Source: Actinomycetospora sp. NBRC 106375 (lineage in GTDB: Bacteria > Actinomycetota > Actinomycetes > Mycobacteriales > Pseudonocardiaceae). Taken from it: a stretch of 64,000 nucleotides of DNA. Below the pieces are notes generated by a model, which saw only the letters and a list, made by a program, of their open reading frames with translations, made no database searches and was not told the origin of the DNA. The translations under genes and the position numbers were made by a program. Shown in pieces: positions 6,198 through 18,242 of the stretch (position 1 is the stretch's first letter; every line of letters starts with the position of its first letter). The stretch covers positions 1-64,000 of the forward strand of contig NZ_BSTS01000013.1 of assembly GCF_030269665.1 (NCBI RefSeq), in the 5' to 3' direction.

Positions 6198-7577
6198 TCA
6201 GGCCGCTGCGGGCTCCGGCGCCGTCGCCGTACGGCGCAGCTTCGTCCGCGGCCCGAAGAGGGCGACGACGATCGCGCCGACGACCCACGTCGCGGCGATG
6301 AACACGAAGACGCTCTGGTAGCCGCTGCCGTTGTAGAGCGCCGCGATGATCAGCGGCCCGGCGGCGTTGGAGAGCCGGCCGACGCCGTACGAGATGCCGG
6401 TGCCCAGCGAGCGGGTGCGGGTGTCGAACAGCTCGGGCGAGTAGGCGTACGCCAGGGCGGTGTAGCCGCGCTCGACGAGGTTGACCATGAAGCCGAACAC
6501 GACGATGAGCACCGGGTCGAAGGTCAGGCCGTAGAACAGCCCGCAGACCCCGATGACGGCGCCGAACACCGCCAGGCACCACTTGCGCTCGAACCGGTCG
6601 GTGACGGCGGCCGCGAGCAGGCAGCCCAGCGGCGCGCCGACGGTGGTGAGGGCGACGTAGAAGATCGAGTTCTCGACGCTGAAGCCCTGCTTCGCGAGCA
6701 GCGTCGGGGCCCAGCTCGAGTACCCGAAGAAGCCGATGGTCTGCGTGACCCACAGGACGCAGAGCAGCAGCACCGGGAGCAGGACGCGGCGGCGCAGCAG
6801 CACCCGGTACCACGGGTCGCCGTCCGGGGCGGTGCCCGCGGGCTGCTCGGGCAGCGCCGCCGGCTCGGGCAGCGGGCCCTTCTCGGCGGCGACGGAGGAC
6901 TCGATGTCGCGCAGGACGGCGTCGGCGCGCTCGTGCTCGCCGCGGCTCTCCAGCCAGCGCGGCGACTCGCGCAGGTGGCGCAGGAAGAACACGAAGAACA
7001 GCCCGAGCGCGCCCCAGAGGTAGACCAGGCGCCAGGACCAGTCCGACATCGGCACGACGAAGCTCGCGATGAGGCTGGTGGCCGGGGTGCCGCAGATGCC
7101 GATGGCGATCGCGTACGCCTGGTACTTGCCGCGCTTCGCGGCCGGGAACAGCTCGCTGACGTAGATCACCGCGACGACGGTCATGGCCGCGAGCCCGGCG
7201 GAGGTGAGGAACCGGAACACGCCGAGCGAGACGACGTCCCACGAGAACACCGACGTCAGCGAGAAGACGCCGAAGAGGACCACCGTGACGGTCAGCGCGC
7301 GCTTGCGTCCCACGCGGTCGGCGAGCGCGCCGGCGGCGATCGACCCGAGGAACATGCCGACGAACGACGTCGAGGTCACGTAGGCGACCTGGTTGACGGT
7401 GACGCCCCACAGCTTGAGCAGGCGCGGCGCCGTGACGGCGAAGGTGTTGATGTCGGCGAACTCGAAGAAGTACGCGAACGACACCGCCACCAGCGTCACG
7501 AGGTGGAAGCGCCCGATCGGGAGGCGGTCGAGCCGCTGCTGCGCCGTCGGCGCCGCGGGGGAGTCAGGCGTGGTCAT
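6198..7577 (-). CDS. MFS transporter, aromatic/organic-acid type
   Basis: A 459-residue, 12-TM major facilitator. The loop 2-3 signature GALADRVGRKRA is intact and a second copy occurs in the C-half (AVTDRFERKW). A hydrophilic loop of about 50 residues separates the halves. The start ATGA overlaps the stop of the LigI-like gene by four bases, preceded by GGAGGG inside that gene, so the two are translationally coupled. The context predicts uptake of a meta-cleavage pathway substrate or a dicarboxylated intermediate. Substrate class is inference; sugar-porter-like relatives exist. Confidence 0.85.
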   Translation of the reverse strand: MTTPDSPAAPTAQQRLDRLPIGRFHLVTLVAVSFAYFFEFADINTFAVTAPRLLKLWGVTVNQVAYVTSTSFVGMFLGSIAAGALADRVGRKRALTVTVVLFGVFSLTSVFSWDVVSLGVFRFLTSAGLAAMTVVAVIYVSELFPAAKRGKYQAYAIAIGICGTPATSLIASFVVPMSDWSWRLVYLWGALGLFFVFFLRHLRESPRWLESRGEHERADAVLRDIESSVAAEKGPLPEPAALPEQPAGTAPDGDPWYRVLLRRRVLLPVLLLCVLWVTQTIGFFGYSSWAPTLLAKQGFSVENSIFYVALTTVGAPLGCLLAAAVTDRFERKWCLAVFGAVIGVCGLFYGLTFDPVLIVVFGFMVNLVERGYTALAYAYSPELFDTRTRSLGTGISYGVGRLSNAAGPLIIAALYNGSGYQSVFVFIAATWVVGAIVVALFGPRTKLRRTATAPEPAAA

Positions 7578-8491
7578 GACGAGCCCTCCTCGGGCCAGTA
7601 CAGGCGCATCGGGTTGTCGACGAGCAGGCGGCGCCGCGCGTCGGCGTCCGGCGCGAGGTGGGCGACGTGGTCGACGAGCAGCCCGTCGTCGGGCATGTGG
7701 TCGGTGAGGTTCGGGTGGGGCCAGTCGGTGCCCCACAGCACGCGGTCGCCGTGCTCGGCCACGACGCGGCGGGCGAAGGGCACGACGTCGGTGTAGGCGT
7801 GCCGCTCGCCGTCGACGGCGGGCGGCCCGGTGACCGACAGGCGCTCCGGGCAGCCGACCTTGACCCACACGTCGTGGCGCTCGACGAACCGCAGGAAGCG
7901 CGCGAACTCGGGGCCGTCGGGGTCGCCGGTGACGTCGGGGCGGGCCATGTGGTCGACGACGACGGGCACCGGGAGCCGCGCGAGGACGTCCTCCATCCCG
8001 GGCAGGTCGGCCGCCTCGAGGTAGACCACGACGTGCCAGCCCAGCGGCGCGACCGCGGCGGCGACGGCCGCCATCTCGTCGGGCGTGGCGGCGTCGACGA
8101 GGCGCTTCAGGAAGGCGAACCGGACGCCCCGCACGCCGGCGTCGTCGAGCTCGCGCAGCTCGGCCGCGGTGACGTCGGGCCGCACCGTGGCGATCCCGCG
8201 GGCCCGCCCGCTGGCGGCGCGCACGGCGTCGGCCATCGCCCGGTTGTCCGCCCCGTGGCACGTCGCCTGCACGACGACCTGCCGGTCGAACCCGAGGTGG
8301 TCGCGCAGGGCGAACAGCTGCTCGCGGCCCGCGTCGGTCGGGGTGTACTTGCGCTCCGGGGCGTACGGGAAGACGTCGCCGGGCCCGAAGACGTGGCAGT
8401 GCGCGTCGACCGCACCCGGGGGCAGGGCGATCGTCGGACGCGACGGTGTCGGGTCCCAGGTCAGCCAGCCGGGGCTCGGCGTCGTCGGCAT
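7574..8491 (-). CDS. ligI: 2-pyrone-4,6-dicarboxylate lactonase (LigI-like)
   Basis: A 305-residue amidohydrolase strongly reminiscent of LigI of Sphingobium SYK-6, which hydrolyses 2-pyrone-4,6-dicarboxylate (PDC) to 4-oxalomesaconate in the protocatechuate 4,5-cleavage pathway. Recognisable blocks are VDAHCHVFGP, YAPERKYTP, ATCHGADN, FLKRLVDAA, VVVDHMARPDV, WGTDWPHPN and the C-terminal NPMRLYWPEE. Length equals the family's. ATG 8491 is chosen at the first family-like residue. It is the first gene of a minus-strand pair with the MFS gene, divergent from the AAHS transporter. A GntR-type site sits 73 bp upstream. Confidence 0.88.
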   Translation of the reverse strand: MPTTPSPGWLTWDPTPSRPTIALPPGAVDAHCHVFGPGDVFPYAPERKYTPTDAGREQLFALRDHLGFDRQVVVQATCHGADNRAMADAVRAASGRARGIATVRPDVTAAELRELDDAGVRGVRFAFLKRLVDAATPDEMAAVAAAVAPLGWHVVVYLEAADLPGMEDVLARLPVPVVVDHMARPDVTGDPDGPEFARFLRFVERHDVWVKVGCPERLSVTGPPAVDGERHAYTDVVPFARRVVAEHGDRVLWGTDWPHPNLTDHMPDDGLLVDHVAHLAPDADARRRLLVDNPMRLYWPEEGSS

Positions 8492-8563
8492 CGGAGCCAC
8501 TCTGCTCTCCCGTCGTCGTGGTGACCCGGGTGAGCTTCCCTGCCGACCCGGATCGGCGCAAGG

Positions 8564-8575
8564 ATTGTCAACAAT
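8564..8575. promoter_or_regulatory. GntR/FCD operator candidate, site 1
   Basis: ATTGT-CA-ACAAT is an inverted repeat in the gap between ligI and the AAHS transporter. Read on the minus strand it contains a perfect TTGACA, a possible -35 facing ligI, although no good -10 follows. A nearly identical element lies before the aldolase gene at 10698. FCD regulators commonly bind short TTGT..ACAA palindromes. Confidence 0.6.
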
Positions 8576-8588
8576 TTTGTGGTGACTC

Positions 8589-8617
8589 TTGTTGCCGATA
8601 TTGGTGAGCGCTAGCGT
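8589..8617 (+). promoter_or_regulatory. Candidate promoter for the AAHS transporter
   Basis: TTGTTG (8589-8594), a 17-bp spacer and TAGCGT (8612-8617) precede the ATG at 8627 by nine bases, so the transcript would be almost leaderless. This agrees with the lack of a ribosome site before that ATG. The palindrome at 8564 lies just upstream. Weak hexamers, so tentative. Confidence 0.3.
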
Positions 8618-8626
8618 CCCTCGACC

Positions 8627-9922
8627 ATGTCCACCCCGACCGCCCGTCTCGCCACGCGGGTGACGGCCCTGTGCTGGTTCGTCGTCCTGCTCGACGGCCT
8701 CGACCTCTTCGTCTTCGGCGCCGTCCTGCCCCGTCTGCTCTCCGAGCACGCGCTCGGCCTGACCCCGGCCGTGGCCGGGGAGATGGGGAGCCTGACGACC
8801 TTCGGGATGCTGCTCGGCGCCGTCGGGTCGGGGGCGATCGCCGACCGGCTCGGACGCCGCTGGGGGCTGGTCCTGGGCGTCACGGTTTTCTCCCTGGCCT
8901 CGCTCGCGACGGCGCTGGCGCCCTCGATCGCGGTGTTCGGCGCCGCGCGCTTCGTGGCCGGGCTCGGACTGGGTGGGCTGCTGCCGACGGCGATCGCCAT
9001 GGCGATGGAGTACGCGACGCCGCGTCGCCGGGCGCTCAGCGTCGCGGTGGTGATGACGGCGCACCAGGCCGGGGGCGCCCTCGCCGGTGCGCTGGGCCTG
9101 GGGCTCGCGGCGTCGATCGGCTGGCGCGGGGTCTTCCTCCTCGGCGCGGTCCCGCTGGTGGTCGCCGTCCCGGCGCTGCTGGCGTGGCTGCCCGAGTCGC
9201 CGAGCTTCCTGGTCGCCCGCGGTCGTCGCGCCGAGGTGGACGCCATCGCGCGGCGCCACGGCGTCGACGCGGCGTCGCTGCTGCCGGCGGAGGAGGAGCG
9301 CTCCGAGGAGGTCGGTCTGCGCGCGCTGTTCGCCCGCGGCGCGCGCCGGACCACGCTGCTGTTCTGGGTCGCCTCGTTCTTCGGCCTGCTGCTGGTCTAC
9401 GGGATGAGCACCTGGCTGCCGACGATGATGCGCGCGAACGGCTACGAGCTCGGCTCGGCGGTGGCCTTCCTCGTCGTCATCAACATCGGCGGGATCGTCG
9501 GCCTGCTCATCGCCGGTCCCGTGGCCGATCGGGTGGGGCCGCGGCCGGTCGCGATCACCTGGTTCGCGCTCACGGCGGTCGGCGTCGCGCTCATGGCGAT
9601 CAGGATGCCGGTGCTCGCGACGTACGCCGTGGTGTTCTTCGCGGGCACGTGGCTCTTCAGCGCCCAGGTCATGGTCTACGCGTTCGTCGGCAGCTCGTTC
9701 GGCCCCGCCGCGCGCGGCACCGCGCTCGGCTGGACCGCCGGGATCGGGCGGGTCGGCGCCGTCGTCGGGCCGAGCCTCGGCGGGTTCCTCGTCGCGGCCG
9801 GGGCGTCCACGTGGGGGTTCGCCGTCTTCGCGGTCGCCGGCGTCCTCGGGGCCGTCGCGGTCGCCCTCGTGCCCCGGCGCCGCGCCGTCCGCGCGGAGCT
9901 CGCGACACCGGCGCTCGCGTAG
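8627..9922 (+). CDS. Aromatic acid:H+ symporter (AAHS family, PcaK/BenK-like)
   Basis: A 431-residue, 12-TM MFS protein. The TM1 motif DGLDLFVFG matches the D-G-x-D signature of AAHS carriers such as PcaK, where the acidic pair is needed for aromatic acid uptake. The loop signature GAIADRLGRRWG and the mid-protein WLPESPSFL also fit the family. It is divergent from ligI and directly upstream of the GntR regulator gene. Context suggests protocatechuate, 4-hydroxybenzoate, vanillate or gallate as substrate; the exact one is not readable. Confidence 0.88.
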   Translation: MSTPTARLATRVTALCWFVVLLDGLDLFVFGAVLPRLLSEHALGLTPAVAGEMGSLTTFGMLLGAVGSGAIADRLGRRWGLVLGVTVFSLASLATALAPSIAVFGAARFVAGLGLGGLLPTAIAMAMEYATPRRRALSVAVVMTAHQAGGALAGALGLGLAASIGWRGVFLLGAVPLVVAVPALLAWLPESPSFLVARGRRAEVDAIARRHGVDAASLLPAEEERSEEVGLRALFARGARRTTLLFWVASFFGLLLVYGMSTWLPTMMRANGYELGSAVAFLVVINIGGIVGLLIAGPVADRVGPRPVAITWFALTAVGVALMAIRMPVLATYAVVFFAGTWLFSAQVMVYAFVGSSFGPAARGTALGWTAGIGRVGAVVGPSLGGFLVAAGASTWGFAVFAVAGVLGAVAVALVPRRRAVRAELATPALA

Positions 9923-9972
9923 TGTTCGGCGGCACCACAGCGACGGGACACCACGCACCGGGGAGGTCGGCG

Positions 9973-10656
9973 ATGAGCTCCGCACCGGACGCCGCCGGGC
10001 CGGCCGGGGTCCCGAGCGGGCCGGTGGAGGTCGTCGACCTGGTCCGGCGCGCCATCCACGAGGGCGACTTCGCCCCGAACCAACGGCTCGTCGAGGCCGA
10101 CCTCTCGGTGCAGTTCGGCGCGAGCCGTGCGGCCGTGCGCACCGCGCTGGTGCAGCTCGCCGCCGAGGGCCTCGTCGAGCGCGTCCAGAACCGCGGGGCC
10201 CGCGTGCGGGCCGTGTCGCTGGAGGAGGCCATCGAGATCTCCGAGGTCCGCATGGTCGTCGAGGGCCTCTGCGCGGCGAAGGCCGCCCAGCGCGCGAGCG
10301 ACGAGGACCGCGCGGCGCTGCAGGAGATCGCCACCGGCATGCGCGCCGCGGTCGAGCGCGGCGACGTGTTCGGCTACTCGGAGCTCAACCGGCGCCTGCA
10401 CGCCGCCGTACGGTCCGTCGGCGGGCAGGCGGTGGCCGACGGCGTCCTCGAGCGGCTGCGCGGGCAGAACGTGCGCCACCAGTTCCGGCTGGCGCTGCTG
10501 CCGGGACGGGCCTCGGTGTCCCTGCCCCAGCACCTCGAGATCGTCGACGCGATCTGCGCCGGCGACGCCGACCGTGCCGAGGCGGCCATGCGGACGCACC
10601 TCGCCAGCGTCATCGAGACGCTGCCCCAGGTCGCGCAGGGCACCTCCGGCTCCTGA
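9973..10656 (+). CDS. GntR-family regulator, FCD subfamily
   Basis: A 227-residue GntR regulator: an N-terminal winged helix (about residues 18-80, with LVEADLSVQFGASRAAVRTAL as the recognition region) and an all-helical FCD ligand domain. FCD proteins usually bind a carboxylate effector through metal-ligating His residues; a candidate here is the His of RRLHAAV. ATG 9973 follows GGGAGG. It lies inside the island between the transporter and the aldolase. Two copies of one palindrome flank it, so it is the probable local repressor. Effector unknown; a pathway intermediate is likely. Confidence 0.85.
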   Translation: MSSAPDAAGPAGVPSGPVEVVDLVRRAIHEGDFAPNQRLVEADLSVQFGASRAAVRTALVQLAAEGLVERVQNRGARVRAVSLEEAIEISEVRMVVEGLCAAKAAQRASDEDRAALQEIATGMRAAVERGDVFGYSELNRRLHAAVRSVGGQAVADGVLERLRGQNVRHQFRLALLPGRASVSLPQHLEIVDAICAGDADRAEAAMRTHLASVIETLPQVAQGTSGS

Positions 10657-10697
10657 GGTCGACGCCACGCCCATCGCAGCCCTGAACTGTCGCGAAA

Positions 10698-10709
10698 AAT
10701 GTTGACAAT
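10698..10709. promoter_or_regulatory. GntR/FCD operator candidate, site 2
   Basis: AATGTTGACAAT is, on the opposite strand, ATTGTCAACATT; it differs from site 1 (8564) at one of 12 positions. It holds a perfect TTGACA (10702-10707) oriented toward the aldolase gene at 10761. Placement of the same element before both transcription units of the island supports a shared regulator, most simply the FCD protein encoded between them. Confidence 0.6.
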
Positions 10710-10760
10710 CTTGGCGACACATTCGACGCTCGGACCAGAGGCTCGCGGGAGGAGGAACCC

Positions 10761-11444
10761 ATGCGGACGGTGGTCGTGACCGACTCGCCACGCGCCGACG
10801 CCGGCGACGCCGCGGCGCTCGGGGACTACGGGGTCGCGACGGTCCACGAGGCGCTGGGACGGGTCGGGTACCTCGGCCCGGAGTTCCGCCCCGCCTGGGC
10901 CGGCGCCCGCGCCGGGGGGACCGCGGTGACGGCGCTGTGCTGGCCGGGCGACAACCTGATGATCCACGTGGCGGTCGAGCAGTGCCGCCCCGGCGACGTC
11001 CTCGTCGTCGCCACCGCGTCGCCGTCGACCGACGGCCTCTTCGGCGAGCTGCTCGCGACCTCGCTGGCGCAGCGCGGCGTGCGCGGCGTGGTGCTGGCCT
11101 GCGGCGTGCGCGACGTCGCCGACCTGCGGACGATGGGCTTCCCGGTCTGGTCGCGCGCGGTCTCGGCGCAGGGCTCGGTGAAGGCCACAGCGGGCGCGGT
11201 GAACGTGCCCGTCACGGTCGGCGGGCAGGTCGTGCACCCCGGCGACGTCGTCCTCGGCGACGACGACGGCGTCATGGTCGTGCCGCGGGCCGACGTCGGG
11301 CGGGCGCTCACGGCGTCGCAGGCCCGCGTCGAGAAGGAGGCCGCGACCCGGGAGGCGCTCCGGGCCGGCGAGCTCGGGCTCGACCGCTACGGCCTGCGGG
11401 ACCGGCTGAAGGAGCTCGGGATCGAGTACGTGGCGCATGAGTGA
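10761..11444 (+). CDS. ligK: RraA-family aldolase: 4-carboxy-4-hydroxy-2-oxoadipate aldolase (LigK-like)
   Basis: A 227-residue RraA/HMG-aldolase-family protein. These class II aldolases split 4-carboxy-4-hydroxy-2-oxoadipate (CHA) to pyruvate and oxaloacetate, the last step of protocatechuate/gallate meta-cleavage. Conserved features are the early PGDNLMIH segment, GELLATSLAQRG, the substrate/metal CGVRD motif with its Arg-Asp pair, and GDDDGVMVVP. ATG 10761 follows GGGAGGAGG, and the gene overlaps the next by eight bases. RraA relatives that only inhibit RNase E lack this context and are shorter. Confidence 0.85.
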   Translation: MRTVVVTDSPRADAGDAAALGDYGVATVHEALGRVGYLGPEFRPAWAGARAGGTAVTALCWPGDNLMIHVAVEQCRPGDVLVVATASPSTDGLFGELLATSLAQRGVRGVVLACGVRDVADLRTMGFPVWSRAVSAQGSVKATAGAVNVPVTVGGQVVHPGDVVLGDDDGVMVVPRADVGRALTASQARVEKEAATREALRAGELGLDRYGLRDRLKELGIEYVAHE

Positions 11445-12537
11445 TCACGAGGACGGCGTCCGCGTCACGATGATGCGCGGCGGCACGTCGCGCGGGCTCT
11501 ACGTCGAGGCGTCCGACCTGCCCGCGGACCCGGCCGCGCGCGACGACCTGCTGCTGCGCCTCATGGGCACGCCCGACCCGCGCCAGATCGACGGGCTCGG
11601 CGGGGCGACGTCGCTGACGAGCAAGGTCGCCGTCGTCGGCCCGTCGGCGCACCCGGACGCGGACGTCGACTACCTGTTCCTCCAGCTCGGCGTCGACGAG
11701 CCGACCGTCTCCGACCAGCAGAACTGCGGCAACATCCTCGCCGGCGTCGGCCCGTTCGCGATCGGGCGCGGTCTCGTCGCCGCGACCGACGGCACCACCG
11801 ACGTCCGCATCCGCATGGTCAACTCCGACAGTACCGCCGTCGCGACCGTCGCCACCCCCGGCGGGCGGGTCACGTTCGCCGGCGACGTCGCGATCGCCGG
11901 GGTCCCCTGCACCGCCGCCGGGATCACGCTCGCGTTCGCCGACACCGAGGGCTCGGCCACGGGCGCGCTGCTGCCGACCGGCCGCGTGCGCGACACCGTC
12001 GACGGCGTCGAGGTCACGTGCGTCGACAACGGGATGCCGGTGGTGCTCGCGCTCGCCGCGGCCTTCGACCTGACGGGCCACGAGAGCCACGAGGACCTCG
12101 CCGCCGACACCGCCCTCGCCGCGCGCATCGACGGCCTGCGCACCAAGGCCGGCGCGCTCATGGGCCTCGGCGACGTGACGGCGTCGTCGGTGCCCAAGAC
12201 CGTCCTGCTCGCCCCGCCCGCCGACGGCGGCCACGTGGCGACCCGCTCGTTCATCCCGGTCCGCCCGCACACGGCGGTGGGCGTGCTCGCCGCGGTCAGC
12301 GTGGTCACGGGGATGCTGCTGCCCGGCGCGGTCGGCCACGAGATCGCGCAGACGTGGCCCGCGGGCGCGACGCGGATCGACGTCGAGCACCCGACCGGGC
12401 ACTTCCTCGTCGACGTCGCCGTCGACACCTCGGTGAGCCCGCCGCGGGTCGTCCGCTCCGGGGTCGTGCGCACGGCCCGGACGCTCATGGACGGCGTCGC
12501 CTTCCCCCGCCCCGCCCCCGACCACGGAGAGGTCTAG
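11437..12537 (+). CDS. galD: 4-oxalomesaconate tautomerase (PrpF-family, GalD/LigU-like)
   Basis: A 366-residue PrpF-fold isomerase. The family signature MMRGGTSRGLY occurs near the N-terminus, followed by GLGGATSLTSKVAVV and DQQNCGNILAGVGPFAI. GalD/LigU shift the double bond or keto-enol form of 4-oxalomesaconate; other PrpF proteins isomerise aconitate. The tautomerase assignment comes from its position between the LigK-like and LigJ-like genes. ATG 11437 lies inside the aldolase gene, showing translational coupling. Confidence 0.85.
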   Translation: MSDHEDGVRVTMMRGGTSRGLYVEASDLPADPAARDDLLLRLMGTPDPRQIDGLGGATSLTSKVAVVGPSAHPDADVDYLFLQLGVDEPTVSDQQNCGNILAGVGPFAIGRGLVAATDGTTDVRIRMVNSDSTAVATVATPGGRVTFAGDVAIAGVPCTAAGITLAFADTEGSATGALLPTGRVRDTVDGVEVTCVDNGMPVVLALAAAFDLTGHESHEDLAADTALAARIDGLRTKAGALMGLGDVTASSVPKTVLLAPPADGGHVATRSFIPVRPHTAVGVLAAVSVVTGMLLPGAVGHEIAQTWPAGATRIDVEHPTGHFLVDVAVDTSVSPPRVVRSGVVRTARTLMDGVAFPRPAPDHGEV

Positions 12538-12539
12538 CC

Positions 12540-13499
12540 GTGCCGCCCCTGCACGACGTCGCCCACCTCGCCCACCTCGAGCTGCGCACGCCCGTGCTCG
12601 AGGAGAGCGTCGCGTTCTTCACCGACTACCTCGGCCTCACGGTGAACGGCACCGTCGGCGACTCGGTGCTCCTGCGCGCGTTCGACGACTACGAGCAGAC
12701 GACGCTCAAGCTCACCCCGCACGCGACCTCCGGGATCGGGCGCACGAGCCTTCGCGCCGCGAGCCCGGAGGCCCTCGACCGCCGGGTGGCGGCGATCGAG
12801 GCCACCGGGCACGGCCTCGGCTGGGTCGACGGCGACCCCGGCACCGGACCGACGTACCTGTTCACCGACCCCGACGGCCACGAGGTCGGGATCTACTACG
12901 AGAGCGAGTGGTACCGCGCGCCCGCGGAGCTCGCGCCGTCGCTGAAGAACCAGGCCCAGGCCTACCCCGGCCGCGGGGTGTGCGTGCGGCGCCTCGACCA
13001 CGTCAACTACCTCGGTGTCGAGGTGGAGACCAACCGCGACTACCTGCGCGACACGCTCGGCGCGATGGTCACCGAGCAGATCGTGCTCGACGACGGGTCG
13101 GTCGCCGGCAGCTGGACGACCTTCACGAACAAGGGCTACGACGCGGTCTACACCCGCGACCGCACGGGCACCGCCGGCCGCCTGCACCACATCGCCTTCG
13201 CCGTCGACAGCCGCGCCGACATCCTGCGGGCCGCCGACATCGCGATCGACCACGGCGTGTTCATCGAGACCGGCCCGCACAAGCATGCGATCCAGCAGAC
13301 GGTCTTCCTCTACGTCTACGAGCCCGCCGGCAACCGCATCGAGCTGTGCAACGCGGGCGCGCGGCTGGTCCTCGCGCCGGACTGGGAGCCGGTCGACTGG
13401 ACCGAGGCCGAGCGGGCGAAGGGCCAGGCCTGGGGCCTGCAGACGATCGCGTCGTTCCACACCCACGGCACGCCGCCGGTCGAGGGCGTCGCCTCGTGA
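12540..13499 (+). CDS. Type I extradiol (VOC) ring-cleavage dioxygenase
   Basis: A 319-residue, two-module vicinal-oxygen-chelate protein resembling catechol 2,3-dioxygenase (XylE). The Fe(II) triad is readable: His154 (RRLDHVNY), His217 (RLHHIAF) and Glu268 (GNRIEL). Second-sphere His249 and Tyr258 correspond to XylE His246 and Tyr255. The position of XylE His199 appears to be Tyr200 (NKGYD). GTG 12540 follows GGAGAGG. It lies inside a meta-cleavage operon that lacks LigAB, so it is the best candidate for the ring-opening step on protocatechuate or a related catechol acid. Substrate is inference. Confidence 0.85.
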   Translation: MPPLHDVAHLAHLELRTPVLEESVAFFTDYLGLTVNGTVGDSVLLRAFDDYEQTTLKLTPHATSGIGRTSLRAASPEALDRRVAAIEATGHGLGWVDGDPGTGPTYLFTDPDGHEVGIYYESEWYRAPAELAPSLKNQAQAYPGRGVCVRRLDHVNYLGVEVETNRDYLRDTLGAMVTEQIVLDDGSVAGSWTTFTNKGYDAVYTRDRTGTAGRLHHIAFAVDSRADILRAADIAIDHGVFIETGPHKHAIQQTVFLYVYEPAGNRIELCNAGARLVLAPDWEPVDWTEAERAKGQAWGLQTIASFHTHGTPPVEGVAS

Positions 13500-14266
13500 G
13501 CACCGCCGTCGCCGTGCTCGGCCTCGGTGAGGCGGGGTGGGAGATCGCCGCCGACCTCGTCGCCGCCGGCGCCGAGGTGCGCGGCTACGACCCGAAGGTG
13601 ACACCGGCTGACATGATCAGCGCGCGGGTCGACGAGGCCGACGCGGTCCGCGACGCCGACCTCGTGCTGTCGGTCAACAGCTCCCACGACGCGCTCGACG
13701 CCCTGGCGAACGCCGCCGCGGGCCTGCGTCCGGGCACGGTCTGGGCGGACCTCAACACCGCCTCGCCCGGGACGAAGGCGGCGCTCGTCGACGCGGCGCC
13801 GGACGGGGTCGCGGTGGTCGACGTCGCCCTGATGTCGCCGGTGCCCGGCAAGGGCCTGCGCACGCCGATGCTGGTCAGCGGGGAGGGCGCCGCGCGGTAC
13901 GCGCATCTGCTCGGCTCACTCGGCGCCGACGTCACCGTGCAGCCGGGCCCGGCCGGGACCGCGATCTCCCGCAAGCTGCTGCGCAGCGTGTTCTACAAGG
14001 GCCTCGCGGCCGCGGTGGTCGAGGCGCTCGAGGGGGCGCGGGCGGCGGGCTGCGAGGAGTGGCTCGCCGGCAACGTCGCCGCCGAGCTCGCCGGGTTCGA
14101 CGCCGCGACGATCGACCGCCTCGTCGACGGCACCCGCCGCCACGCGCGCCGGCGCGCCGACGAGATGGCCGCGGCCGCACAGCAGCTGCGCGAGCTCGGC
14201 GTCGCGCCCCGCAGCGCCACCGCCGCCCACGACCTGCTCGCCGCGCTGCGGGACGGAGGATCCTGA
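13496..14266 (+). CDS. NAD(P)-binding dehydrogenase with DUF1932 C-terminus
   Basis: A 256-residue member of the 6-phosphogluconate/beta-hydroxyacid dehydrogenase superfamily. The Rossmann start AVLGLGEAGWEIA is at residues 4-16, SVNSSHDALD follows, and an all-helical DUF1932-type domain fills the C-terminus with a conserved Lys in SRKLLRSVFYKG. GTG 13496 overlaps the dioxygenase stop (GTGA). The classical pathway needs LigC, a GFO/IDH-type dehydrogenase, to make PDC from the ring-cleavage semialdehyde, and none is present. This protein is the only oxidoreductase in the operon and may do that job. Confidence 0.8.
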   Translation: MSTAVAVLGLGEAGWEIAADLVAAGAEVRGYDPKVTPADMISARVDEADAVRDADLVLSVNSSHDALDALANAAAGLRPGTVWADLNTASPGTKAALVDAAPDGVAVVDVALMSPVPGKGLRTPMLVSGEGAARYAHLLGSLGADVTVQPGPAGTAISRKLLRSVFYKGLAAAVVEALEGARAAGCEEWLAGNVAAELAGFDAATIDRLVDGTRRHARRRADEMAAAAQQLRELGVAPRSATAAHDLLAALRDGGS

Positions 14267-15285
14267 TGATCATCGACTGCCACGGTCACTACACGACGGC
14301 CCCCGCGGCCCACACCGACTGGCGCGCCGCCCAGACCGCGGCGGCGGACGCGGGAACGCCGGCCCCGCTCTACCCGGAGATCACCGATGAGGAGATCCGG
14401 GAGAGCGTCGAGGGCAGCCAGCTGCGGCTCATGGCCGAGCGCGGCATCGACCTGACGATCTTCTCGCCGCGCGCGTCGGCGATGGGCCACCATGTCGGCG
14501 ACGAGGCCGTCAGCGCCGCGTGGACCCGCGCCTGCAACGACCTGATCGCCCGCGTCGTGGGGCTCTTCCCGCGGCACTTCGCCGGCGTCGGTCAGCTCCC
14601 GCAGTCGCCCGGCGTGCCGATCGAGCACGCGGTGGGCGAGCTGCGCCGCTGCGTCTCCGAGCTCGGGTTCGTGGGCGTCAACCTCAACCCCGATCCCTCG
14701 GGCGGCCACTGGACCGCGCCGCCGCTGACGGACAAGGCCTGGTACCCGTTCTACGAGGCCATGGTCGAGCTCGACGTGCCGGCGATGGTGCACGTCTCGG
14801 CGGTGACCAACCCGAACTTCCACGCCACCGGCTCGCACTACCTCAACGCGGACACCACCGCGTTCATGCAGCTGCTCCAGGCCGACCTGTTCGCCGACTT
14901 CCCCGGGCTGCGGCTGGTGATCCCGCACGGCGGCGGCGCGGTGCCCTACCACTGGGGTCGCTTCCGCGGCCTGGCCGACATGCTCGACCGGCCCGCGGTC
15001 GAGCAGGCCCTGATGGGCAACGTCTTCTTCGACACCTGCGTCTACCACCAGCCCGGCATCGACCTGCTCTTCGGCGTGATCGACCACGCCAACATCCTCT
15101 TCGGCTCCGAGATGGTCGGGGCGGTGCGCGGGATCGACCCGCAGACCGGGCACCACTTCGACGACACCCGCCGCTACGTCGACGCCCTCGACCTCGCCCC
15201 CGACGACCGCGCCCGGGTCTACGAGGGCAACGCCCGCCGCGTCTACCCCCGGCTGGACGCCCTCCTGCGTGAGCAGGGCCGCTGA
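14266..15285 (+). CDS. ligJ: 4-oxalomesaconate hydratase (LigJ-like)
   Basis: A 339-residue amidohydrolase-fold hydratase very like LigJ of Sphingobium, which hydrates 4-oxalomesaconate (or its tautomer) to CHA. Diagnostic blocks include the start MIIDCHGHYTTAP, FSPRASAMGHH, INLNPDPSGGHW without its first two residues here (VNLNPDPSGGHW), HYLNADTTAFMQ, IPHGGGAVPYHWGRFRGL, FFDTCVYHQPGIDLL and the C-terminal EGNARRVYPRLD. The metal residues DxHxH and the later His/Asp are intact. The start overlaps the previous stop (TGATG). It is the last gene of the island operon. Confidence 0.92.
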   Translation: MIIDCHGHYTTAPAAHTDWRAAQTAAADAGTPAPLYPEITDEEIRESVEGSQLRLMAERGIDLTIFSPRASAMGHHVGDEAVSAAWTRACNDLIARVVGLFPRHFAGVGQLPQSPGVPIEHAVGELRRCVSELGFVGVNLNPDPSGGHWTAPPLTDKAWYPFYEAMVELDVPAMVHVSAVTNPNFHATGSHYLNADTTAFMQLLQADLFADFPGLRLVIPHGGGAVPYHWGRFRGLADMLDRPAVEQALMGNVFFDTCVYHQPGIDLLFGVIDHANILFGSEMVGAVRGIDPQTGHHFDDTRRYVDALDLAPDDRARVYEGNARRVYPRLDALLREQGR

Positions 15286-15331: not shown

Positions 15332-16363
15332 ATGGCGAGGACGGTGGACTGGGACGAGGGGGACGGCCCGGACCGCGCGGCGGCCGTCCTGGCGATCGAC
15401 CAGCGCGCGCTGCCCGGCGAGTACCGGGTGCGGCGCCTGGCGAGCGTGGACACGCTGATCGACGCGATCGCCGACCTGACGATCCGCGGCGCCCCGGCGC
15501 TCGGCGCCACCGGGGCGCTCGGCGTCGCGCTCGCCGCCCGCCGGCATCCCGGCGACCCCGACACGGTGCGGGCCGAGGCGGAACGGGTCGCCGCGGTCCG
15601 CCCGACGGCGGTGAACCTGCGCCGCGGGGTCGAGCGGGCGCTCGCCCGGCTCGACGACGGCGCCGACGCCGTGGTCGCCGAGGCCTGCGCGGTGCTCGAC
15701 GAGGACGAGGCCACGAACCGCCGCCTCGGTACCCGTGCGGCGGACGTGCTGACCGCGCTCGGTCCCGACTGCCCGCTGCGCCTGCTGACCCACTGCAACG
15801 CCGGCGCGCTGGCCACGGTCACCTGGGGCACCGCGCTGGGGGCGGTCCGCGAGCTCGCCGAGCGGGGCCGCGTCGCGGAGGTCCTCGCGTGCGAGACCCG
15901 CCCGTTGCTGCAGGGCGCGCGGCTGACCGTGTGGGAGCTCCGCGAGATGGGCGTGGCCCACCGCCTGCTCGTCGACGGGGCGGCGGCGTCGGCGATGGCG
16001 CGGGGGCTCGTCGACGCCGTCGTGGTCGGTGCCGACCGCATCGCCGCCAACGGCGACGTCGCCAACAAGATCGGCACCTACGCGCTGGCCTGCGCCGCCG
16101 CGCAGCACGGCGTCCCGGTGGTCGTCGTCGCGCCCGAGGCCACCGTCGACCGCACGACGGCCTCGGGCGCGGACATCGTCATCGAGGAGCGCGCGGCCGA
16201 CGAGGTCCGGGGGTTCGCCGGCGTCGTCACGGCGCCGCCGGACACGCCCGTCTACAACCCCGCCTTCGACGTGACGCCCGCGGCGCTGCTGGCCGCGGTG
16301 GTCACCGAGGGTTCGACCTTCCGCGGCGGGGCCTGGGCGGGGGAGAAGGCGCTGAGTCGGTAG
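15332..16363 (+). CDS. mtnA: S-methyl-5-thioribose-1-phosphate isomerase
   Basis: A 343-residue MtnA, the aldose-ketose isomerase of the methionine salvage pathway, in the eIF2B-like fold. Visible motifs are IRGAPALGATGALG, THCNAGALAT with the catalytic Cys, ETRPLLQGARLT, and GADRIAANGDVANKIGTY with the catalytic Asp. These separate MtnA from ribose-1,5-bisphosphate isomerases. An in-frame ATG at 15269 would overlap ligJ; ATG 15332 is preferred since MARTVDWDEG starts the family-like sequence. No other salvage gene is adjacent, but a MetE-like gene follows nearby. Confidence 0.9.
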   Translation: MARTVDWDEGDGPDRAAAVLAIDQRALPGEYRVRRLASVDTLIDAIADLTIRGAPALGATGALGVALAARRHPGDPDTVRAEAERVAAVRPTAVNLRRGVERALARLDDGADAVVAEACAVLDEDEATNRRLGTRAADVLTALGPDCPLRLLTHCNAGALATVTWGTALGAVRELAERGRVAEVLACETRPLLQGARLTVWELREMGVAHRLLVDGAAASAMARGLVDAVVVGADRIAANGDVANKIGTYALACAAAQHGVPVVVVAPEATVDRTTASGADIVIEERAADEVRGFAGVVTAPPDTPVYNPAFDVTPAALLAAVVTEGSTFRGGAWAGEKALSR

Positions 16364-16385
16364 GAGGCGGGTAGGAAGGCCCGTG

Positions 16386-17180
16386 ATGGCGACTCCCTCC
16401 CTGACGCTCAACGACGGCACCGCGATCCCGCAGTTCGGGCTCGGCGTCTACCACGTGCCCCCGGAGGACACCGCCGCGCTGGTCGCCGCGGCCCTCGCGA
16501 CGGGTTACCGCCACGTCGACACCGCGCAGCAGTACGGCAACGAGGCCGGGGTCGGGCAGGGCCTGCGCGACGCCGGTGTGCCGCGCGACGACGTGTGGAT
16601 CACGACGAAGCTCCACGACGCCGAGCACTCCCACGACGCCGCGATCGCCGCGCTCGAGGCGAGCCTCGAGCGGCTCGGGACCGACCACGTCGACCTCTTC
16701 CTCATCCACCGCCCCGGCCCGGACGGCCCCGACAGCGACGTCGCCGCCTGGCGGGCCATGGCCGCGCTGCGCGCGGACGGGCGTGTGCGCTCGATCGGCG
16801 TCTCCAACTTCGAGCGCCGGCAGCTCGACCACCTCGTCGCGGAGACCGGCGTCGTGCCGTCGGTGCACCAGATCCGGGTCAACCCCCGCACGCCGCACCG
16901 GGCCCTGCGCGCCCACCACCGCCGGCGGGGCATCGCGACCGAGTCGTGGGGGCCGCTGCGCGAGGGCCGCCTCGTCGACCACCCCGTCGCCCGGCGGGTG
17001 GCCGCGCGGGTCGGCCGCACCCCGGCCCAGGTCGTGCTGCGCTGGCACCTCGAGCAGGGGCTGATCGTCTTCCCGAAGGCGTCGAGCCCGGAGCGGCTGC
17101 GCGAGAACCTCGGCGCCACCGAGTTCACGCTCTCGCGCCGCGACGTGCTCGAGCTCAGCGCCATGCGACGGTGGTTCTGA
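16386..17180 (+). CDS. Aldo/keto reductase
   Basis: A 264-residue NADPH-dependent aldo/keto reductase of the AKR5-like prokaryotic group (2,5-diketo-gluconate reductase type). Tetrad residues are visible: Asp in YRHVDTA, Tyr in QQYGNE, Lys in ITTKLHD and His in FLIHRP. The usual NQVE/HP segment reads HQIRVNPRTP and the following loop is Arg/His-rich, so substrate binding may differ. The C-terminal cofactor segment FPKASSPERLRENL is typical. ATG 16386 follows AGGAAGG; an in-frame GTG lies three bases earlier. Converges on the MetE-like gene with a 3-bp gap. Confidence 0.88.
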   Translation: MATPSLTLNDGTAIPQFGLGVYHVPPEDTAALVAAALATGYRHVDTAQQYGNEAGVGQGLRDAGVPRDDVWITTKLHDAEHSHDAAIAALEASLERLGTDHVDLFLIHRPGPDGPDSDVAAWRAMAALRADGRVRSIGVSNFERRQLDHLVAETGVVPSVHQIRVNPRTPHRALRAHHRRRGIATESWGPLREGRLVDHPVARRVAARVGRTPAQVVLRWHLEQGLIVFPKASSPERLRENLGATEFTLSRRDVLELSAMRRWF

Positions 17181-17183
17181 GGG

Positions 17184-18242
17184 TCAGGCCGGCACCAGCC
17201 CCGGCACGGCCCCCAGCTCCGCGCGCACCCGCGCCGTGCCCTCGACCATCGCCCGCAGCTTGGCCGTCGCCACCGCCGTCGGCAGGTGTCGCAGGCCGCA
17301 GTCGGGGTTGATGACCAGACGCTCGGCGGGCACCAGGTCGAGCGCCCGGTGGATGCGCGCCGCGACGAGCTCGGGCGTCTCGACGGTGTGCGACTTGACG
17401 TCGATGACCCCCAGCCCGAGCGCGCGGTCCCACCCGGAGCGGGCGATCACCGGCAGGTCCTCGTCGCCCTTGCGCGCGAACTCCAGCACCAGCTGGTCGA
17501 CGTGCGCGTCGAGCACGGCGGGGAACAGGAAGTCGTAGTGCCCTTCCCACAGGGGGCGGGCGTAGCGGTTGCCGTAGCAGACGTGCAGTGCCCAGGTGAC
17601 GTCCCTGCCGGTCGTGCCGACGTCGCGCGTGACGATGTTGATCGCCTCGACGGCGAGGCCGACCTGCTCGGGGTAGCCGGCGAGGAACGGCTCGTCGATC
17701 TGCAGCACGTCGGCGCCCGCGTCCCGGAGCGCCCCGGCCACCCCGCCGAGCACGCGGGCGATCGCGCGCACCAGCTCCGCCGGGTCGTCGTGGACGGTGT
17801 CGCTGACGCGGTGGGCGAGCGAGAACGGGCCGGTCAGCGAGAACTTCACCGGCCGGTCGGTGCGCGCGCGGGTGAAGGCGAGGTCCGCGTCCAGGCCCAG
17901 CCCGGCGTCGTCGGGCGGGACCGGCGCGACCGGCGAGGTGCGGACCCACGCGTCGTAGTAGTCGTAGTAGAAGTCCTTCGCGGGCTGCGGGATCGCGATG
18001 CCCGGGATGCGCGCGAGCAGGTAGTCGACGTCGTTGTCGCGACGCAGCTCGCCGTCGGTGACGATGTCGAGCCCGGTCAGCTCCTGGTCCTTGATCGCGG
18101 CGGTCACCGCGCAGTCGTGGACCCCGTCGAGCTGGGTGCGGCTCATGCGGCTGCGGAACCAGTCGGTCTTGAGGCGCTCGAGCCACTCCGGCACGGGCCA
18201 GGAGCCGACAACGGTGGTCGGGAGGAGCGAGGTCGGCATCAT
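17184..18242 (-). CDS. Short MetE-like (cobalamin-independent) methyltransferase
   Basis: A 352-residue protein corresponding to the catalytic barrel of MetE without the N-terminal folate-binding repeat, as in archaeal and actinobacterial short forms. Zinc ligands can be placed at His/Cys of LHVCYGN, a Glu near VLEFARKGD and Cys of NPDCGLR. Methyl donor and acceptor are uncertain, since short forms may use methylcobalamin or other donors. Its start overlaps the stop of the methyltransferase gene by one base (TGATG), so the two are one unit. A MetF-like gene diverges at 19870. Confidence 0.82.
   Translation of the reverse strand: MMPTSLLPTTVVGSWPVPEWLERLKTDWFRSRMSRTQLDGVHDCAVTAAIKDQELTGLDIVTDGELRRDNDVDYLLARIPGIAIPQPAKDFYYDYYDAWVRTSPVAPVPPDDAGLGLDADLAFTRARTDRPVKFSLTGPFSLAHRVSDTVHDDPAELVRAIARVLGGVAGALRDAGADVLQIDEPFLAGYPEQVGLAVEAINIVTRDVGTTGRDVTWALHVCYGNRYARPLWEGHYDFLFPAVLDAHVDQLVLEFARKGDEDLPVIARSGWDRALGLGVIDVKSHTVETPELVAARIHRALDLVPAERLVINPDCGLRHLPTAVATAKLRAMVEGTARVRAELGAVPGLVPA

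Follow-up and report, generated by a model that had tools for sequence, protein, structure and literature searches.

A gene island of Actinomycetospora sp. NBRC 106375 that probably breaks down gallate with a ring opener from an unexpected protein family

Gallate (3,4,5-trihydroxybenzoate) is a building block of tannin and lignin. When its ring is opened beside a hydroxyl, a tricarboxylic acid results directly; protocatechuate instead yields an aldehyde, for which the dehydrogenase LigC is required. In the gal pathway of Pseudomonas putida (GalA, GalB, GalC and GalD), a type II (LigB) dioxygenase, GalA, opens the ring, and a PIG-L protein serves as hydratase. The lig, pmd and pcm systems of protocatechuate 4,5-cleavage combine LigAB and LigC with LigI, LigJ, LigK and LigU. 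The present analysis concerns a compact island at positions 6198-15285 of a 64,000-nucleotide stretch of the soil actinobacterium Actinomycetospora sp. NBRC 106375 (NZ_BSTS01000013.1; hereafter the window). It has the same proposed lower chemistry as the gal pathway (tautomerase, hydratase and aldolase) and shares homologues of LigI, LigJ, LigK and LigU with the second group. It differs from the former in its type I VOC dioxygenase and in using LigJ as hydratase, and from the latter in lacking LigAB and LigC and in carrying a GntR regulator and the VOC enzyme. The island probably breaks down gallate with a ring opener from an unexpected protein family, and we consider it reasonably likely to be a GntR-controlled gallate meta-cleavage module. 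Its gene set is also present in many other bacteria. The AromaDeg description assigns gallate dioxygenases to the LigB superfamily, and gallate is not among the type I substrate examples given there (PMC4250580).

A check of the open reading frames located nine genes and two operator sites in the island, and all genes are open frames in the high-GC codon frame. Five of them, ligK, ligU, the VOC gene, the DUF1932 gene and ligJ, are co-directional; three of their four junctions overlap (by 8, 4 and 1 bp) and the other leaves 2 bp, so that they very probably form one transcript. The LigK-like 4-carboxy-4-hydroxy-2-oxoadipate (CHA) aldolase (10761-11444, + strand) passes the cut-off of the NCBIfam model NF006731 (314.8 vs. 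179 bits) but falls short of that of TIGR ligK_PcmE (283.4 vs. 304.5). The LigU/GalD-like 4-oxalomesaconate (OMA) tautomerase (11437-12537, +) passes that of NCBIfam OMA_tautomer (485.9 vs. 440), and the LigJ-like OMA hydratase (14266-15285, +) matches PDB 6dxq, an OMA hydratase, with 560 bits. All lower genes of the gal pathway (OMA tautomerase, OMA hydratase and CHA aldolase) are present. With the LigI-like protein, the full lower pathway named by a first-pass annotation of the window is complete by profile and PDB matches. The annotation was also right about two MFS carriers (AAHS-type and MFS1) and a regulator (GntR-FCD), and Pfam and NCBIfam bear out its type I VOC dioxygenase and DUF1932-type dehydrogenase.

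The VOC enzyme (12540-13499, +) belongs to Glyoxalase in Pfam, and its best NCBIfam model is catechol_2_3 (TIGR03211), where 299.4 bits fall just short of the cut-off of 320.2. Its nearest relatives, at 87-88% identity, are from Actinomycetospora. The structure model (mean predicted local distance difference test, pLDDT, 81.8) shares the common two-domain VOC fold, at a TM-score of 0.84-0.87, with AphC, the alkylcatechol 2,3-dioxygenase of Rhodococcus jostii RHA1 (PDB 3lm4 and 7q2a). H154, H217 and E268, which are invariant in the clade alignment and align with the metal-ligand residues of AphC, are presumably the ligands of a 2-His-1-Glu site, as in homoprotocatechuate dioxygenase (HPCD). AphC differs in its low identity (35-36%), in a His at position 200 and in the lack of H247, R275 and R292. 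The signature alignment comprised 87 clade sequences (80 actinobacterial, the window included, 6 alphaproteobacterial and 1 from Thermus oshimai). Y200, H247, R275 and R292 occur together in 87/87 of these and in none of six others (T. thermophilus, Rhizobium rhizogenes K84, AphC, LapB, HPCD and PDB 9wgj). Counted along the alignment, Tyr200 takes the place of HPCD His200, a second-sphere acid/base residue; a His at this position is absent from the clade, with Tyr in every sequence. The best PDB sequence match, 9wgj (383 bits), shares Y200, K198 and R292 with the window enzyme but carries Ser247 and Tyr275 in place of H247 and R275. In a tree of 34 sequences (28 from the clade), the clade has a support of 88/85 and the clade with 9wgj 95/89. 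This points to a Tyr200-bearing clade of type I extradiol dioxygenases, for which we propose the function of gallate dioxygenase. The open-access literature searched yielded no description of a gallate dioxygenase of the VOC type, subscription journals being mostly outside this scope. BLC23O of Bacillus ligniniphilus was considered as a known gallate-active VOC enzyme and set aside: it has 283 residues, and the text seen reports no gallate activity (PMC9925492).

A scan of a species-level genome collection gave at least 554 VOC relatives, distant ones included, of which the best 80, all actinobacterial by title, were kept. Neighbours within 8 genes of VOC were identified with a simple codon-based gene caller and clustering. 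The caller missed the VOC frame in L076 (loci and regions are designated here by L numbers), and the 80 VOC sequences called are the window and 79 loci. These loci are phylogenetically related, and, as only the best matches were kept, the sample leans to close relatives. LigU was found near VOC in 73, LigK in 70, GntR in 61, DUF1932 in 45, PIG-L in 39, LigJ in 22, AAHS in 13 and LigI in 4 cases. LigK or LigU lies near VOC in 75/80 sequences and both in 69/80. PIG-L, the family of GalB, and LigJ never occur together. PIG-L alone was seen in 20 loci, PIG-L with DUF1932 in 19, LigJ with DUF1932 in 17, none of PIG-L, DUF1932, LigJ and LigI in 12, DUF1932 alone in 6, LigJ with DUF1932 and LigI in 3, LigJ alone in 2 and LigI alone in 1. 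Where at least 8 kb were available on each side of VOC, 45 of 58 loci had either hydratase. Hence, the stable core consists of aldolase, tautomerase and VOC, to which most loci add one of two unrelated hydratases. DUF1932 is missing from 35 and LigI from 76 of the 80 neighbourhoods.

The neighbourhoods also suggest what the substrate may be. Tannase-family genes lie within 8 genes of VOC in 7/80 loci; for 1.52 Mb, the expectation is about 0.15, based on 42 matches above 280 bits in about 423 Mb. DesA/LigM-like O-demethylases occur near VOC in 6/80 loci and PurU in 12/80, together with MetF and FolD; one DesA/LigM-like example scores 581.7 bits with the syringate O-demethylase model (cut-off 800). 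VanAB lies near VOC in L045 and L055, and in Actinomycetospora TBRC 11914 ligJ is followed by VanB and VanA, with the island operator before them. Three Amycolatopsis loci (L056, L059 and L061) carry a C-glycoside deglycosidase and GMC oxidase module with a DesA/LigM-like O-demethylase beside VOC. In L059, profiles identify the PF19906 beta subunit, the GMC oxidase and a TIM-barrel partner related to solved deglycosidase-type chains. Bergenin is a C-glucoside of 4-O-methylgallate and, as our own suggestion, a possible natural substrate of this module; a search of open-access literature listed nothing on its bacterial breakdown.

Pathway variants point in the same direction. Among 50 VOC genomes chosen as a subset from the 80 loci, a DUF1932 homologue (E<=1e-25, at most 53 candidates scored per genome) is absent from 14, LigI of at least 70% identity from 41 and any LigI match at E<=1e-30 from 36. 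The genome of L098, DUF1932-positive by clustering, gave no DUF1932 match at E<=1e-25. Weaker LigI relatives (36-47%) in five more VOC genomes might serve. Since gallate cleavage yields OMA directly, no aldehyde dehydrogenase is required, and the frequent lack of DUF1932 and LigI fits such a substrate. Furthermore, PcaH of protocatechuate 3,4-dioxygenase is over cut-off in 46/50 VOC genomes, so that protocatechuate already has a route. A reading in which the island mainly serves protocatechuate was not supported, because the neighbourhoods, together with the variants that lack dehydrogenase or LigI, agree better with gallate, although protocatechuate keeps a lesser probability.

The gene families, the tight operon layout, the conserved operator, the conserved neighbourhoods and the active-site signature can be read directly; all substrates, as well as the reactions of the VOC, DUF1932 and carrier proteins, are our inference. 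The AAHS carrier would import the aromatic acid, and the VOC enzyme would open gallate next to a hydroxyl to give the tricarboxylic OMA directly. LigU would then tautomerise OMA, LigJ would hydrate it to CHA, and LigK would split CHA into pyruvate and oxaloacetate. LigI and MFS1 would form a separate side arm for uptake and hydrolysis of 2-pyrone-4,6-dicarboxylate (PDC), and the DUF1932 dehydrogenase would be an accessory enzyme.

Outside the actinobacteria, six alphaproteobacterial plasmids and the Thermus and R. rhizogenes K84 regions were read. The order PIG-L-VOC-LigK-LigU, accompanied by a divergent DUF1932 gene, is found on plasmids of Agrobacterium tumefaciens, A. vitis, Rhizobium Q54 and Thioclava (VOC 55-57% identical), with interposed ABC-transporter genes in the two Agrobacterium plasmids. 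In A. tumefaciens, a tannase (PF07519, 437.9 bits) follows the operon. In Roseomonas (VOC 62%; L125), LigK at the edge of the stretch is followed by a LigI-like gene (45%), DUF1932, LigAB and VOC. Methylobacterium (VOC 62%) has DUF1932-VOC-MFS-LigJ with ligK 7 kb further; no LigU was seen in the fetched stretches of these two genera. Thermus oshimai (L164) shows, on a plasmid, VOC-GntR-DUF6282-PIG-L-LigK-DUF1932 beside PobA. More distant VOC proteins have other company: that of Thermus thermophilus (43.6% identity) neighbours catechol-pathway-type genes, and for that of R. rhizogenes K84 (34%) OMA-type partners were not found in 12.9 kb.

The DUF1932 dehydrogenase (13496-14266, +; 6PGDH-like) is over cut-off for NAD_binding_2 (29.0 vs. 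21 bits) and DUF1932 (PF09130; 48.6 vs. 25), and its structure model has a pLDDT of 94.6. The GxGxxG motif, D32 and K160 are invariant in 25 sequences; D32 and the motif point to a probably NAD-dependent enzyme. Homologues (34-36% identity) stand directly upstream of ligJ in clusters of Novosphingobium US6-1, KA1 and Croceicoccus (L160:8162-8998, L161:8129-8998 and L163:8201-8998). In these clusters, ligAB is moreover immediately followed by a Gfo/Idh/MocA gene, presumably of the LigC type by its position. In a fourth sphingomonad cluster, that of Sphingobium TomTYG64 (L159), a homologue within the same identity range precedes fldW, with no Gfo/Idh/MocA gene seen in 19 kb. A role as LigC replacement, at first favoured from Roseomonas and TomTYG64, was dropped as the lead in view of the homologues beside LigJ where a LigC-type gene is present and of regions free of dioxygenase genes. 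We judge the enzyme more likely to act on an acid at the OMA/CHA level than as a dehydrogenase of 4-carboxy-2-hydroxymuconate-6-semialdehyde (CHMS).

Ten genomes have DUF1932 (>=55%) without VOC, and in four of them the region bears LigK, LigU, LigJ or PIG-L genes (L145, L146, L151 and L153). The regions L145 (LigK-LigU-DUF1932-GntR-LigJ), L151 (LigK-PIG-L-DUF6282 and a divergent DUF1932) and L153 (LigJ-LigI-MFS1-DUF1932-LigK-LigU) hold no dioxygenase gene; their genomes have no VOC at E<=1e-60, LigAB elsewhere in them being outside the search. In L146, a shortened VOC frame of 129 residues (7096-7485) sits between intact LigU and DUF1932 genes. In L152, 4.8 kb separate the DUF1932 gene from LigA-LigB with their hydrolase, and near the DUF1932 gene of L154 only a GntR gene was recognisable. 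In L154-L158, the gene caller missed the dehydrogenase, whose position is known from the sequence search, and the gene context was not used as evidence. An exclusive tie to OMA genes is ruled out by L147-L150, where the DUF1932 gene has no lig genes in its region. In L148 (7427-11300) and L149 (3758-8099), from genomes without VOC, a relative of 64-65% identity lies 0.2-2.7 kb from shikimate-type genes. These score 448.9 and 434.2 bits with shikimate dehydrogenase (cut-off 235) and, under the cut-off of 1200, 573.6 and 540.6 bits with the 3-dehydroshikimate dehydratase QuiC, so that an upstream role on a shikimate-type acid leading to gallate or protocatechuate is possible. LigI was also considered as an obligatory partner and rejected, being present (>=70%) in 6/29 genomes with DUF1932 near VOC and in 3/21 without. 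As a side observation, a DUF6282 gene accompanies GntR, DUF1932 or LigK/PIG-L genes in L145, L151, L156 and L164, with an ABC transporter in the first three. Those three regions are without VOC, the L156 genome having one elsewhere, and L164 has VOC in the cluster. The DUF6282 protein is a possible non-LigI lactonase.

The LigI-like PDC hydrolase (7574-8491, - strand; Amidohydro_2) matches PDB 4d8l, a PDC hydrolase, with 337 bits. Its sole NCBIfam match, 4-sulfomuconolactone hydrolase, stays under the cut-off (222.7 vs. 500). With a 4-bp overlap it is joined to MFS1 (6198-7577, -), a candidate transporter of PDC or of an acid like it, and both genes point the opposite way from the AAHS promoter. 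LigI adjoins MFS1 in 10/10 contexts examined (window, L046, L112, L117, L128-L132 and L153; the LigI of the L045 genome is outside this count), and in 7/10 LigJ is also adjacent (LigJ-LigI-MFS1). This recurrence suggests that LigI-MFS1 may be a portable module that takes up and degrades PDC, which is of interest as a building block for polymers. LigAB, for its part, occurs elsewhere in relatives: LigA is over cut-off in 19/50 VOC genomes, and all seven LigA-LigB regions fetched (L133-L139) carry DesA/LigM-like or VanAB O-demethylase genes. Six of the seven also hold an alpha/beta hydrolase and a small protein, MIase (PF02426) in the one case tested. These regions may represent a 3-O-methylgallate branch that supplies the shared OMA pool; as a counterpoint, one LigA passes the cut-off for protocatechuate LigA (110.6 vs. 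108.6).

The AAHS-type carrier (8627-9922, +) and MFS1 have the aromatic acid/H+ symport family (TIGR00895) as nearest model, with 275.9 and 215.4 bits, both under the cut-off of 418.55. The regulator (9973-10656, +) has GntR and FCD domains. A motif TTGTNNACAA, in most cases TTGTTGACAA or its reverse complement, occurs in 53/118 island-type intergenic regions against 12/502 others; it was first spotted in the window, which is included in the 53/118. The motif precedes PIG-L, LigK, AAHS, DesA/LigM, LigI and ABC genes, among them 4/8 DesA/LigM-like genes, and VanB in L045. In the window, a full putative site, TTGTCAACAA (8565-8574), lies between the divergent LigI and AAHS genes, and ATGTTGACAA (10699-10708), with one mismatch to TTGTTGACAA, lies upstream of the ligK operon. 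This conserved candidate operator appears to tie the island parts together, and the GntR-FCD protein is the probable island repressor. Just downstream of the island (15344-18242), the window encodes MtnA, an S-methyl-5-thioribose-1-phosphate isomerase that passes its cut-off, and a protein resembling MetE that stays under the cut-offs.

The source genome (6.79 Mb, 104 contigs, 97% complete) agrees with the absence of LigAB and LigC noted in the first pass. None is in the island. PF07746 (LigA) has no match in the genome, where the built-in control was silent too, though the same search was positive in the 19/50 other genomes. Seven matches to PF02900 (LigB) were found, with no LigA-like gene seen by eye in about 1.5 kb on each side. 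A sphingomonad LigC-type query gives only two partial matches of 29-32%. The island has no type II gallate dioxygenase of the GalA/DesB type, the VOC enzyme being there instead. PcaH and PcaG, on contig C46, are both over cut-off (355.0 and 184.5 bits). At C1:533312-534882, two adjoining LigB-type genes stand beside a BMC-domain shell protein (PF00936), an arrangement that recalls, as we presume, the actinobacterial ARO microcompartment.

Several observations weigh against gallate as the substrate. The nearest solved structure, 9wgj, carries the label catechol 1,2-dioxygenase, VanAB could equally supply protocatechuate from vanillate, and DesA/LigM over cut-off was not found in the source genome. 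For five of the 80 VOC sequences, LigK and LigU are both absent from the nearest 8 genes; among these, L079 has a LigU-like fragment, L105 is at a contig end, and L056, L059 and L061 are the C-glycoside loci. PIG-L and LigJ are both missing from 19/80 loci and from 13/58 with flanks of at least 8 kb. The T. oshimai cluster adjoins PobA, a 4-hydroxybenzoate 3-monooxygenase that produces protocatechuate, with no LigU in the fetched 14.6 kb. Moreover, a pure gallate route leaves unexplained why DUF1932 (>=55%) and VOC (>=57%) go together in 298 genomes of the order (both 19, VOC only 4, DUF1932 only 10), with a Fisher p of about 3e-19 that is over-confident, kinship being uncorrected.

Some of these points would suit protocatechuate 4,5-cleavage, in which VOC would form CHMS, DUF1932 would convert it to PDC (or the hydrated aldehyde to OMA), and LigI, LigU, LigJ and LigK would finish. 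All required steps are in the window, LigI included, and the GxGxxG motif, D32 and K160 agree with an NAD-dependent dehydrogenase. In Roseomonas, LigI-DUF1932 adjoins LigAB and VOC, a Gfo/Idh/MocA gene being absent from the 17 kb fetched, and T. oshimai has PobA beside VOC and a DUF1932 enzyme 53% identical to the window's. We nevertheless find this route unlikely, given the DUF1932 homologues beside LigJ where a LigC-type gene is already present, the dioxygenase-free regions L145, L151 and L153, the lack of LigI (>=70%) in 23/29 genomes with DUF1932 near VOC and the frequency of PcaH. The non-orthologous front end put forward in the first pass is supported for the dioxygenase. For the dehydrogenase, a place as plain LigC substitute is not supported, given the homologues beside LigJ, the dioxygenase-free regions and the lack of DUF1932 in 14/50 VOC genomes. 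Kinship with the Arthrobacter pcm system, one of two origins considered in the first pass, also failed: in Pseudarthrobacter, PcaA is a type II enzyme of one chain, under a LysR gene, from which the island differs (PMC8431788). A VOC enzyme acting on 3-O-methylgallate, with LigI hydrolysing a methyl-ester product or PDC, would explain the O-demethylase and C1-folate genes beside VOC and the LigI of the window. This is improbable: LigI is lacking in most VOC genomes, tannase neighbours point to gallate itself, and LigAB, itself unsure, is the better candidate because its seven regions carry O-demethylase genes. Least credible of all, and very improbable, is that a catechol or alkylcatechol 2,3-dioxygenase of the usual kind stands in the operon by chance. 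The closest fold is AphC, solved with 4-ethylcatechol, and catechol_2_3 is the best model, but VOC is linked to OMA genes in three phyla, and the signature is absent from five outside relatives and only partial in 9wgj.

Gallate cleavage remains the preferred reading. A wider, joint claim, which we hold in even balance, is that an undescribed and widespread VOC clade with Tyr200 for His200 opens gallate in many actinobacteria and several alphaproteobacteria, reaching Thermus, with H247, R275 and R292 holding the acid, and that the OMA pathway has in the DUF1932 dehydrogenase a further, so far overlooked enzyme, found also in those sphingomonad lig clusters where LigC is kept. Should the VOC clade open gallate, many genes now labelled catechol 2,3-dioxygenase would carry a wrong annotation, and the actinobacterial catabolism of tannin, syringate and perhaps bergenin would acquire the central step it lacks. 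The H200 variants of HPCD that appear among PDB titles would also have a natural counterpart in the Tyr200 clade, and the DUF1932 enzyme would pose a directly testable question within the well-studied lig pathway.

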